From the NCBI GenBank assembly GCA_947488175.1, contig CANKYO010000004.1:124001-188000 (forward strand): a DNA stretch of 64,000 nt. Reading direction: 5' to 3'. A program made the translations under genes and the position numbers. The stretch is from an uncultured Paracoccaceae bacterium. GTDB taxonomy: Bacteria > Pseudomonadota > Alphaproteobacteria > Rhodobacterales > Rhodobacteraceae. Below, piece by piece: positions 14,174 through 17,328 of this stretch. Below the pieces are notes generated by a model, which was given only the letters and a program-made list of their open reading frames with translations, made no database searches and was not told the DNA's origin. Position 1 is the first letter of the stretch; each line of letters begins with the position of its first letter.

Positions 14174-14235
14174 CGTGGCCAGAAAGAAAGTTGCGACAAA
14201 CTGCCGGTTTGCGACACTTTCTCTAATTTCTGCTG

Positions 14236-14264
14236 TTGACCGCCTTTGCGGGTGCCACTAATGT
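14236..14264 (+). promoter_or_regulatory. Sigma-70-type promoter of the ilv operon
   Basis: TTGACC (14236-14241) and TAATGT (14259-14264) are separated by 17 bp, giving a predicted start near 14271, just before the leader-peptide ribosome site. Upstream, TTGCGACA occurs twice (14191 and 14209), 18 bp apart, which might be a regulator site. Confidence 0.7.
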
Positions 14265-14287
14265 CCACGCACACGAAAGGAACCCCG

Positions 14288-14335
14288 ATGAATATCGTCG
14301 TACTAGTGGTGAGAAATGCGCGCATGGGCCGGTAA
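14288..14335 (+). CDS. ilv leader peptide (attenuation), 15 residues
   Basis: ATG at 14288 with AAAGGAA upstream at proper spacing encodes MNIVVLVVRNARMGR and a TAA stop. Six consecutive codons (Ile-Val-Val-Leu-Val-Val) call for exactly the three branched-chain amino acids that the downstream enzyme helps make. The frame is followed by a strong terminator before ilvB. This is the classical arrangement for translation-coupled attenuation: scarcity of charged branched-chain tRNAs stalls the ribosome and favours read-through. Confidence 0.85.
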   Translation: MNIVVLVVRNARMGR

Positions 14336-14388
14336 CGGTAAACCCATAACGATCCCATGCGCCCCCGAATAACCTCGGGGGTTTTTTT
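14320..14388 (+). terminator. Attenuator terminator upstream of ilvB
   Basis: CCCCCGA (14362-14368) pairs with TCGGGGG (14375-14381), loop ATAACC, followed by seven T. A second stem is available upstream: GCGCATGGG (14320-14328) with CCCATGCGC (14354-14362), which starts inside the leader-peptide frame and shares one base with the terminator. A ribosome finishing the leader would cover the left arm. How strongly the two stems exclude each other cannot be judged by eye. Confidence 0.85.
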
Positions 14389-14426
14389 GTGACTGATGAA
14401 ACCAAAACGCGAAGGACGCGAGGAAA

Positions 14427-16181
14427 ATGACAAAAGCCATGACGGGCGCAAAAATGGTCGTACAAGCTCTGATAGATCAGGGCGTGGACGTCGTCTTTGG
14501 TTACCCCGGTGGCGCCGTCCTACCGATCTATGACGAGATTTTTCAGCAAAACCACATCCAGCATGTTCTGGTGCGCCATGAACAGGGCGCGGTGCATGCC
14601 GCCGAAGGCTATGCGCGCGCCACCGGCAAACCCGGAGTGGCACTGGTCACCTCCGGCCCTGGTGCCACAAACGCTGTGACCGGCCTGACCGACGCCCTGA
14701 TGGACTCGATCCCGATCATCGTGCTGACCGGTCAGGTGCCCACCTTCATGATCGGCTCCGACGCGTTTCAAGAGGCCGACACCGTCGGCATCACCCGCCC
14801 CTGCACCAAACATAACTGGCTGGTGAAAGAGACGGACAAACTGGCTGCCGTCATGCACGAGGCGTTTCATATCGCCACATCAGGCCGTCCCGGCCCGGTT
14901 GTGGTCGACATCCCCAAAGATGTGCAATTCGCCACCGGCACCTATACCGAGGCGCGGCAGGTCGAAACGCACTACAACCCGCAAACCAAGGGTGATCTTG
15001 AGATGATCACCGAACTGGCAAAGGCAATGGAAACCGCCAAGCGGCCCATTTTCTATACAGGCGGCGGGGTCATCAACTCAGGCCCAGCCGCCAGCCAGCT
15101 GCTGCGTGAACTGGTCGCCGCCACCGGCTTTCCCATCACGTCGACCCTGATGGGGCTGGGCTGCTATCCGGCCTCCGGCGAAAACTGGATCGGTATGCTG
15201 GGCATGCACGGACTCTACGAGGCCAACATGGCCATGCATGACTGCGACCTGATGATCAACATAGGCGCCCGCTTCGACGACCGGATCACCGGGCGGATCG
15301 ACGCCTTCAGCCCCAAATCACGCAAAGCGCATATCGACATCGACCCGTCCTCGATCAACAAGGTGATCCATGTCGATATCCCGATCCTGGGCGACGTGGC
15401 CCATGTGCTTGAAGATCTGTTGAATGTCTGGAAATCCCGCGGCCGCAAAACCGACAAGGAAAATGTCAGCAAATGGTGGCACCAGATCAACGAATGGAAA
15501 AAAATCGACTGCCTGAAATTCGAACAAAAAGGCAAGGTGATCAAACCCCAATACGCCCTGTCGCGGCTTGAGGAACTGACCAAAAAGCACGACCGCTACA
15601 TCTGCACCGAAGTGGGCCAGCACCAGATGTGGGCCGCCCAATATCTGGGGTTCGAGGATCCCAACCGCTGGATGACCTCCGGCGGACTGGGCACGATGGG
15701 CTACGGCTTCCCGGCCTCCATCGGCGTGCAGATGGCCCATCCCGATGCGCTCGTGATCAACGTGGCCGGCGAAGCCTCCTGGCTGATGAACATGCAGGAA
15801 CTGGGCACGGCCATGCAATACCGCCTGCCCGTCAAGCAGTTCATCCTGAACAACGAACGCTTGGGCATGGTGCGGCAATGGCAGGAACTGCTGCACGGGG
15901 AACGCTATTCGTCCAGCTGGTCTGAATCCCTGCCCGATTTCGTAAAACTGGCCGAGGCCTTCGGGGCCAAGGGCATCCTCTGCGACAACCCGGATGATCT
16001 GGACGACGCGATCATGGAAATGCTGAACCATGACGGTCCCGTCCTGTTCGACTGTCTGGTCGAAAAGCACGAAAACTGCTTCCCCATGATCCCATCCGGC
16101 AAACCGCATAACGAAATGATCCTCGGCGAAAACGCGGACACCGCAAACGCAATCAAGGCCGACGGCGCGGTGATGGTCTGA
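14427..16181 (+). CDS. ilvB: Acetolactate synthase large (catalytic) subunit
   Basis: 584 residues; condenses two pyruvates, or pyruvate and 2-oxobutyrate, in valine/leucine/isoleucine synthesis with ThDP, FAD and Mg. N-terminal ThDP-pyrimidine domain with catalytic Glu52 in VRHEQGAVHAAEGYA, central FAD domain, and C-terminal ThDP-pyrophosphate domain. The metal-binding motif, usually GDG or GDA followed by an NN about 27 residues on, reads GEAS...NN here, a Glu in place of the Asp ligand. AGGA precedes the ATG. Regulated by the attenuator upstream. Confidence 0.96.
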   Translation: MTKAMTGAKMVVQALIDQGVDVVFGYPGGAVLPIYDEIFQQNHIQHVLVRHEQGAVHAAEGYARATGKPGVALVTSGPGATNAVTGLTDALMDSIPIIVLTGQVPTFMIGSDAFQEADTVGITRPCTKHNWLVKETDKLAAVMHEAFHIATSGRPGPVVVDIPKDVQFATGTYTEARQVETHYNPQTKGDLEMITELAKAMETAKRPIFYTGGGVINSGPAASQLLRELVAATGFPITSTLMGLGCYPASGENWIGMLGMHGLYEANMAMHDCDLMINIGARFDDRITGRIDAFSPKSRKAHIDIDPSSINKVIHVDIPILGDVAHVLEDLLNVWKSRGRKTDKENVSKWWHQINEWKKIDCLKFEQKGKVIKPQYALSRLEELTKKHDRYICTEVGQHQMWAAQYLGFEDPNRWMTSGGLGTMGYGFPASIGVQMAHPDALVINVAGEASWLMNMQELGTAMQYRLPVKQFILNNERLGMVRQWQELLHGERYSSSWSESLPDFVKLAEAFGAKGILCDNPDDLDDAIMEMLNHDGPVLFDCLVEKHENCFPMIPSGKPHNEMILGENADTANAIKADGAVMV

Positions 16182-16253: not shown

Positions 16254-16676
16254 ATGATGCCAGACACGATCTTCTTCAAATCTGATCGATTTCCTCCAAC
16301 ACAGGAGGAGATCGAGTATGGTCGCAAAGAAGGCTACGAAAACACGGTCTTTGCCAAGCGACTGGCCGACTTTCTGGTATCAGAGTTGGGCGCGCGCGGA
16401 TATGTAGCGCGCGCCATGAACCCGGATGTCACGAGCCTCTACGGCGAAAACTGCGAATACTTATCGATCGAACACCAAGAACCGTTCGATCTTGGTATGT
16501 TTTGTGGAAACTATGACGACGGGCATCTCCTCATGATACTCCCCGAAGGCAAATATGCATGGAAACGCTTTCGACGGCATCATGCAGAGCCTACGACACA
16601 GGCACTACAACAAACGCTCCTTGATACTCTGAGCGCGGCAGATGGAATTACAGATGTCGTTCTGGGTTATGAATAA
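16254..16676 (+). CDS. Unknown 140-residue soluble protein between ilvB and ilvN
   Basis: 140 residues (139 from the second ATG), mixed charged composition without a signal peptide or membrane helix; contains SIEHQEPFDLGMFCGNYDD. GAAAGG lies before the start. No family recognised. The codon use is less GC-biased than in the neighbouring ilv genes, so it may have been inserted between ilvB and ilvN, which are usually adjacent. It is followed by the 11-bp repeat array and then ilvN. Confidence 0.6.
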   Translation: MMPDTIFFKSDRFPPTQEEIEYGRKEGYENTVFAKRLADFLVSELGARGYVARAMNPDVTSLYGENCEYLSIEHQEPFDLGMFCGNYDDGHLLMILPEGKYAWKRFRRHHAEPTTQALQQTLLDTLSAADGITDVVLGYE

Positions 16677-16761: not shown

Positions 16762-17328
16762 ATGTCCCCCCTCAAAATCAAAAAAGGCTCCACCAGCCAC
16801 TCTGCCTACGACCTCCGACCCACATTCTCGGACAAGGAAGAACAGCACACGCTGGCGGTTCTGGTGGAAAACGAACCCGGCGTGCTGGCCCGTGTCATCG
16901 GGCTGTTCTCCGGGCGCGGCTACAACATCGACAGCCTGACCGTCGCCGAGGTGGATCATCTGGGCCACCGGTCCCGGATCACCATCGTGACCACCGGAAC
17001 GCCGCAAATCATCAACCAGATCAAGGCGCAGCTGGGTCGGATCGTGGATGTGCACAAGGTCAACGACCTGACCGTCGAAGGCAAATCAGTCGAACGGGAA
17101 CTGGCGCTTTTCAAAGTGGTGGGAACAGGCGATCAGCGGATCGAGGCTATTCGGCTTGCCGATATCTTCAGGGCAAATGTGGTCGATAGCACCTTGGAAT
17201 CATTTGTTTTTGAGATCACAGGCACATCCGAAAAAATCGACGCTTTCGCCGATCTCATGCAGCCGCTCGGGTTAGAAGAAATCGCCCGAACCGGCGTTGC
17301 GGCGCTGTCGCGCGGCGCCAAGACCTGA
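16762..17328 (+). CDS. ilvN: Acetolactate synthase small (regulatory) subunit
   Basis: 188 residues; binds valine through an N-terminal ACT domain (about 25-100: LAVLVENEPGVLARVIGLFSG) and stimulates and feedback-inhibits IlvB. The C-terminal domain (about 105-180) interacts with the catalytic subunit. The first 24 residues are a polar extension common in alphaproteobacteria. An AAAGG site precedes the ATG. It is the last gene of the ilvB-orf-ilvN unit and is followed by two strong hairpins. The ilvH name is equally used for this subunit. Confidence 0.95.
   Translation: MSPLKIKKGSTSHSAYDLRPTFSDKEEQHTLAVLVENEPGVLARVIGLFSGRGYNIDSLTVAEVDHLGHRSRITIVTTGTPQIINQIKAQLGRIVDVHKVNDLTVEGKSVERELALFKVVGTGDQRIEAIRLADIFRANVVDSTLESFVFEITGTSEKIDAFADLMQPLGLEEIARTGVAALSRGAKT

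Follow-up and report, generated by a model that had tools for sequence, protein, structure and literature searches.

Sequence and comparative evidence for a probable ribosome-mediated attenuator before ilvB in Rhodobacterales, and related leaders before a Bcr/CflA-type MFS transporter

How is transcription into ilvB controlled in the Rhodobacterales? The question was raised by a 64,000-nt stretch of DNA from an uncultured Paracoccaceae bacterium (GenBank assembly GCA_947488175.1, contig CANKYO010000004.1, positions 124,001 to 188,000), here called the window. In this window, ilvB (14427–16181, plus strand) encodes the large subunit of acetolactate synthase (NCBIfam acetolactate synthase 3 large subunit, 1130.6 bits). 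The gene for the small subunit, ilvN/ilvH (16762–17328, plus strand), was identified by a firm family match and, judging from gene order and strand, probably belongs to the same operon. A 140-aa frame located between the two genes (16254–16676) had no NCBIfam or Pfam match at E 0.001. Directly upstream of ilvB, region 14236–14388 reads, in this order, as a promoter, a 15-codon leader open reading frame (ORF), a 9-bp stem (stem A) and an intrinsic terminator. This leader is very probably an attenuator through which a translating ribosome controls transcription of the ilvB operon.

All elements of the leader lie on the plus strand. The promoter consists of TTGACC (14236–14241) and TAATGT (14259–14264), separated by a 17-nt spacer; under the stricter rule of the promoter scan it was absent from the list, and the same scan does list the terminator. 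A Shine–Dalgarno-like AAAGGA (14276–14281) precedes the leader ORF (14288–14335), which runs from the ATG at 14288 to the TAA at 14333–14335 and encodes the 15-residue peptide MNIVVLVVRNARMGR. Codons 3–8 (14294–14311), ATC GTC GTA CTA GTG GTG, form a run of six consecutive Ile, Val or Leu codons. Among 2,723 small ORF starts (8–40 codons) in the window, only four held such a run and all four were starts of the leader frame, indicating that the leader ORF is no chance frame. The 5′ arm of stem A, GCGCATGGG (14320–14328), lies inside the ORF, from the third base of codon 11 to the second base of codon 14, and its 3′ arm is CCCATGCGC (14354–14362). Stem A encloses a small hairpin, CCG-GTAA-CGG (14329–14338), whose GTAA loop contains the stop codon. 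The terminator (14361–14388) is formed by (G)CCCCCGA (14361–14368) and TCGGGGG(T) (14375–14382), with seven T residues at 14382–14388; its core helix is CCCCCGA (14362–14368) paired with TCGGGGG (14375–14381). The RNA folded better than its own shuffles (z −2.35 for 14268–14392 and −2.58 for 14311–14392). The original prediction, made from the letters of the window, had placed a 15-codon Ile-Val-Val-Leu-Val-Val frame between a promoter and a terminator with seven T residues, directly 5′ of ilvB, and the sequence bears this out, the promoter included. It had also proposed a second stem starting within the leader frame. That stem is real; it ends at the terminator, with which it shares C14362 alone, or C14362 and G14361 if a G–U pair at the base of the terminator is counted.

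We compared this region at 110 ilvB loci (L001–L110), comprising 80 from named genomes and 30 same-genus loci, the window's own included. Codons and folding were counted at 88 of them, including the window (85 distinct element sequences). A covariance model, R1, was built from 53 non-redundant leaders of the 88. The 22 loci that were left out comprised one cut by a contig end (L006), seven matching R1 at E 7.1e-5 or better (L027, L030, L032, L050, L051, L052 and L059), and 14 with a weak match or none (L062, L063, L065, L066, L068, L069, L071, L073 and L075–L080), three of which are Paracoccus. At the 88 loci the position of the stop codon was identical throughout, and the start codon lay exactly 15 codons before it in 84 (78 ATG, 4 GTG and 2 TTG). 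The peptide end RMGR was conserved across these loci. A TTGAC box was located no more than 70 nt from the ORF start at 85 loci; at 76 loci a TAnnnT box came 16–18 nt after it, the distance being 17 nt at 71 of them.

In a tally that counted any R1 match at a cut-off of E 0.01, matches were present in 354 of the 390 genomes of the order and in 134 of its 139 genera. Because any match was accepted, match positions were checked: 64 of 65 lay directly before ilvB (34 of 34 strong matches, one of which is the window, 14 of 14 further matches and 16 of 17 weak ones), and the remaining match lay before a transporter (genome G398). The original prediction had been staked on conservation of the codon run and of both stems in near relatives. 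Both stem A and the terminator were kept, and codons 4–8 were almost all Val, Leu or Ile at the 88 loci. Among the 36 genomes of the order without a match, 12 of the 20 listed belong to a single genus (g155), which we guess to be Paracoccus. At L063, L065 and L066, which are named Paracoccus loci, ilvB had no R1 match up to E 1, and leader control therefore appears to have been lost or replaced there. The comparison thus provides a firm annotation for a leader that is nearly universal in the order yet falls below the Rfam threshold. Four of the other left-out loci (L075, L076, L077 and L079), which we take to be Hyphomicrobiales, showed by eye a different short ORF rich in Ile, Leu and Val and a terminator with a different stem before ilvB.

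The codon content of the leader points to the amino acids that the operon supplies. In the 53 non-redundant leaders, 252 of the 265 residues at codons 4–8 were Ile, Leu or Val (142 Val, 64 Leu and 46 Ile), compared with 21% in ilvB of the same genomes. Codon choice was also skewed: GTA accounted for 62 of the 142 Val codons (44%, versus 4.8% in ilvB), CTA for 27 of the 64 Leu codons (42% versus 1.7%) and ATT for 32 of the 46 Ile codons (70% versus 15%). Codon bias is a known theme in attenuation leaders. Here the bias toward rare codons extended to codon 9 (GGA in 23 of 30 Gly codons, AGA in 8 of 11 Arg codons), so part of it may serve to keep the RNA unstructured. A rival reading is a general sensor of stalled ribosomes, responding for example to translation inhibitors rather than to branched-chain amino acids: a stall anywhere on the ORF would leave stem A free, and homologous leaders are found before a transporter whose family takes its name from efflux (see below). 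We nevertheless regard such a sensor as very unlikely, given the nearly exclusive use of Ile, Leu and Val in the control block and the place of the leader before the first enzyme of branched-chain synthesis.

Downstream of the control block, it is the RNA rather than the peptide that seems to be selected. Codon 11 encoded many amino acids, but its third base was G at all 88 loci, as pairing in stem A demands; codon 12 was changed from CGC to TGC at four of the 88 loci and to CAC at one, with pairing kept in the aligned set (UG in three, AU in one). In the alignment of the 53 leaders (A1), the share of paired cells was 98.5% in stem A, 96.2% in the small hairpin and 100% in the terminator helix. 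Stem A and the terminator shared two columns (78 and 79) and had no spacer between them. Covariation in these 53 sequences was modest, with four pairs and seven cells changed on both sides, and was above that of shuffles (0 of 500 reached it). When the partner was slid by −1, the covariation score was 0.077, slightly higher than the 0.069 of the proposed register, and sequence conservation therefore carries most of the argument. On the strength of the sequence and this comparison, we regard the promoter, the ORF, the control codons, both hairpins, their fixed spacing and the place before ilvB as established.

These parts suggest the following mechanism. Transcription would start at about 14271, and a ribosome would enter the leader ORF at 14288. 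As long as the tRNAs for Val, Leu and Ile are amply charged, the ribosome would reach the stop codon at 14333 and cover the 5′ arm of stem A; the terminator (14362–14388) would then form and transcription would end before ilvB. When Val, Leu or Ile is short, the ribosome would be expected to stall on codons 3–8. A ribosome stalled at codon 8 would have its front edge at about 14321 (an estimate from ribosome footprint sizes), leaving the 5′ arm of stem A free, so that stem A could fold and relieve termination. Relief might come about by either of two routes: stem A may take over the two base pairs that close the terminator; alternatively, folded stem A may draw the stalled ribosome up to the terminator's foot, so that this hairpin could not close.

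Compared with the usual anatomy of an attenuator, the leader has, by its sequence, a translatable ORF after the promoter (start and stop codons, AAAGGA and promoter boxes), a run of codons for the amino acids that the operon produces, and an intrinsic terminator between the ORF and the first gene. By position, and given ribosome footprint sizes, stem A would be melted by a ribosome at the stop codon and free with a ribosome on the control codons. An antiterminator that excludes the terminator was the one element not found when the 88 loci were folded. Equilibrium folding gave no strong structure of this kind at these loci, and both hairpins were predicted together in the stalled states; as they share only two nucleotides and form together, a textbook antiterminator is absent. 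Stem A formed wherever its 5′ arm was free (0.997 with a stall at codon 5, 1.0 with a stall at codon 8). When the RNA left uncovered by the ribosome was folded, pairing of the closing G of the terminator was 1.0 (minimum, 0.997) at all 88 loci for a ribosome placed either at the stop codon or at codon 8; only a stall at codon 5 lowered it, to an average of 0.64 (minimum, 0.03). In the window, the two ways of dividing the shared bases were nearly equal in energy, at −26.5 kcal/mol for stem A plus a short terminator and −26.0 kcal/mol for a shortened stem A plus the complete terminator. A long-range antiterminator was considered as well. The ACCCCGA before the ATG in the window can pair with the G run of the terminator, but it is not a conserved partner, since in the ribosome-free leader, folded with the U tract omitted, the terminator core stayed at a mean of 0.80 over the 88 loci (below 0.5 in seven). 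The proposed attenuator is thus upheld in its ORF, codons and both stems, whereas the usual mutually exclusive antiterminator is not predicted. The absent antiterminator lowers the case for a textbook four-segment attenuator, not the case for a leader that works like an attenuator, and it raises the mechanistic question of how a stalled ribosome defeats the terminator.

One answer is that relief is purely steric. The attenuator would be the same, but stem A would act by shortening the path, so that the stalled ribosome stands against RNA polymerase and no room is left for the terminator hairpin. The joint prediction of both hairpins in the stalled states fits this reading, as does the estimate that a codon 8 stall would place the edge of the ribosome at stem A's foot. 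It also agrees with four loci of the Atu_C8 type (an Rfam family discussed below), in which stem A and the terminator do not overlap and terminator pairing was 1.0 in every modelled state. However, the junction shared without a spacer by both hairpins in the alignment of 53 ilvB leaders suggests a role for the overlap, and one leader before a transporter (L191) is predicted to form a true antiterminator at an early ribosome stall. We give purely steric relief a substantial chance, though somewhat short of an even one. A constitutive partial terminator without regulation would be in keeping with the strong terminator, which in most states is predicted to form; it would leave the conserved ORF, the control codons and stem A unaccounted for, and we find it scarcely credible.

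Homologs of the leader also stand before a second gene. Two R1 matches were found in 18 genomes of the order. Twelve of the second matches were placed on their genomes, and all of them lay directly before a Bcr/CflA-type MFS transporter with 57–68% identity to that of locus L187; the other six were weak (E 0.0028–0.0093). With the sole copy in genome G398, 13 genomes of the order (loci L249–L260 and L292) carry a copy of the leader before this transporter, usually with a Val-rich control block. Two genomes of the window's genus (G017 and G011) have transporter leaders encoding MTFNIVVAGKRCMVR and MTVKFVVVVSKRCMVR, respectively, each up to a stop codon. The genome that contains the window showed a single R1 match, and its transporter relative (L216, 43% identity) had, by eye, no such leader. 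Outside the order, six clear R1 matches (E 1.7e-5 or better; L187–L192) were found in other alpha-proteobacteria, all six before the transporter and none before ilvB. Ten weak matches outside the order (E 4e-4 to 0.0076) looked by eye like unrelated terminators and were dropped.

The transporter itself was present in 35 of the 390 genomes of the order (E 1e-115). At 30 transporter loci, R1 matched upstream at E 4.5e-6 or better in 13, weakly in one (E 0.14) and not at all in 16; the leader therefore goes with a subset of these transporters. Likewise, among the transporters of 289 genomes of the class, the 12 closest to that of genome G592 (48% identity or more, G592 included) had the leader, by eye, in seven cases. 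The control block of 23 transporter leaders contained 61 Val, 11 Ile and 4 Leu among 115 residues, when taken as the five positions back from the stop codon, a definition that is crude for the longer Atu_C8 type, and with near-duplicates included; the Leu share differed from that of the ilvB leaders (Fisher p, 4e-5). Two transporter leaders (L191 and L260) had lost most control codons or stem pairs. In an alignment of 16 sequences, the window included (A2), 91.5% of cells were paired and the top pair of stem A was unpaired in 10 of the 16. No measure of covariation in these transporter leaders was clearly above shuffles (93, 70, 156, 435 and 31 of 500 reached it).

These copies tie an uncharacterised transporter family to branched-chain amino-acid supply, and from their control codons the transporter is predicted to be under valine control. 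A broader reading would join the two genes in one module. A homologous leader with a mostly Val block stands before the transporter in at least 13 genomes of the order, with a related form in other alpha-proteobacteria; the transporter would be switched on at a shortage of Val, or of Val and Ile, pointing to a role in taking up a branched-chain amino acid or one of its precursors rather than in drug efflux; and the stalled ribosome itself, in place of a classical antiterminator, would be the obstacle to termination. We put this reading forward tentatively, as a whole rather closer to doubtful than to probable.

A further relative came from Rfam. The whole window had no Rfam match at the gathering score, but Atu_C8 (RF02502, “Rhizobiales sRNA”) matched it along the whole length of the model at 31.0 bits, below the gathering score of 50. 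The Atu_C8 consensus contains an ORF, MIILVVGPRMGRAV, closed by a stop codon, as well as a GCGCAUGGG stem and a terminator. The window leader resembles it in this anatomy of ORF, GCGCAUGGG stem and terminator; Atu_C8 differs in its terminator, in a spacer between stem and terminator, and in being classed as an sRNA. Within one family of the class, six of 36 genomes had matches above threshold. Five of these six were translated (L111, L122, L124, L125 and, in reversed orientation, L123), and each held a readable ORF rich in Val and Ile, together with the GCGCAUGGG stem and a terminator. For L111, the strong match whose downstream gene was identified, that gene encodes a Bcr/CflA-type MFS transporter and is not ilvB. 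R1 gave weak matches to the Atu_C8-type leaders (E values of 0.0017 to 0.3), which makes homology between the two types likely rather than proven. A literature search on Atu_C8 found nothing relevant. The comparison of leaders nonetheless explains what kind of RNA Atu_C8 probably is, namely, an attenuator leader.

The sRNA class of Atu_C8 bears on another reading, in which the cis switch matters little and the main action is in trans, by the leader peptide or by the short RNA left after termination. In S. meliloti, the trp leader products rnTrpL and peTrpL are both reported to act in this way, and the conserved RMGR end of the ilvB leader peptide would also be consistent with a selected product. 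The RMGR codons, however, coincide with stem A, and the changes at codon 12 alter the amino acid and keep the pairing. This argues for the RNA pairing described above, and we consider a main role in trans very unlikely.

Leader-peptide attenuators at ilvB/ilvIH of alpha-proteobacteria were reportedly described by Vitreschak et al. in 2004, and an attenuator of the Caulobacter ilvBN operon is said to have been described by Tarleton et al. in 1994. By description, the former are of the same class and precede the same gene, with a short ORF of branched-chain codons before the operon; the Caulobacter leader is likewise compared with the window leader by description. The element of the window, a leader with branched-chain codons before an acetolactate synthase operon, is a well-supported further case of the known alpha-proteobacterial ilvB attenuators, as judged by gene and codons. 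An ilvB leader peptide in alpha-proteobacteria was referred to as “previously described” by 2005, with Vitreschak et al. cited for it (Corbino et al. 2005, PMC1273637). The Caulobacter ilvBN attenuator is described as having tandem Ile and Val codons, a rho-independent terminator and read-through at low tRNA charging (PMC4117421). In the same order as the window, a ribosome-mediated attenuator was proposed for the uORFC-8-2 motif before cysS, which differs by its cysteine codons and its gene (PMC8632094). In Actinobacteria, ilvB leaders with an ORF rich in Ile, Val and Leu and a terminator before ilvB are described as having an unclear mode of regulation; there the ORF overlaps the terminator, whereas in the window leader stem A lies between the two (PMC1262725). 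Our literature search, with most subscription papers outside its scope, returned no Rhodobacterales ilvB attenuator and no leader before a Bcr/CflA transporter. The copies of the leader before the transporter are new here.

Upstream of the promoter, the window contains a repeated TTGCGACA (14190–14220). At 58 of 85 loci, CGACA was present 5′ of the −35 box, mostly 23–26 nt before it, where shuffles would lead one to expect 4.9. The CGACA motif and the repeated TTGCGACA may possibly represent a regulator site or an UP element.
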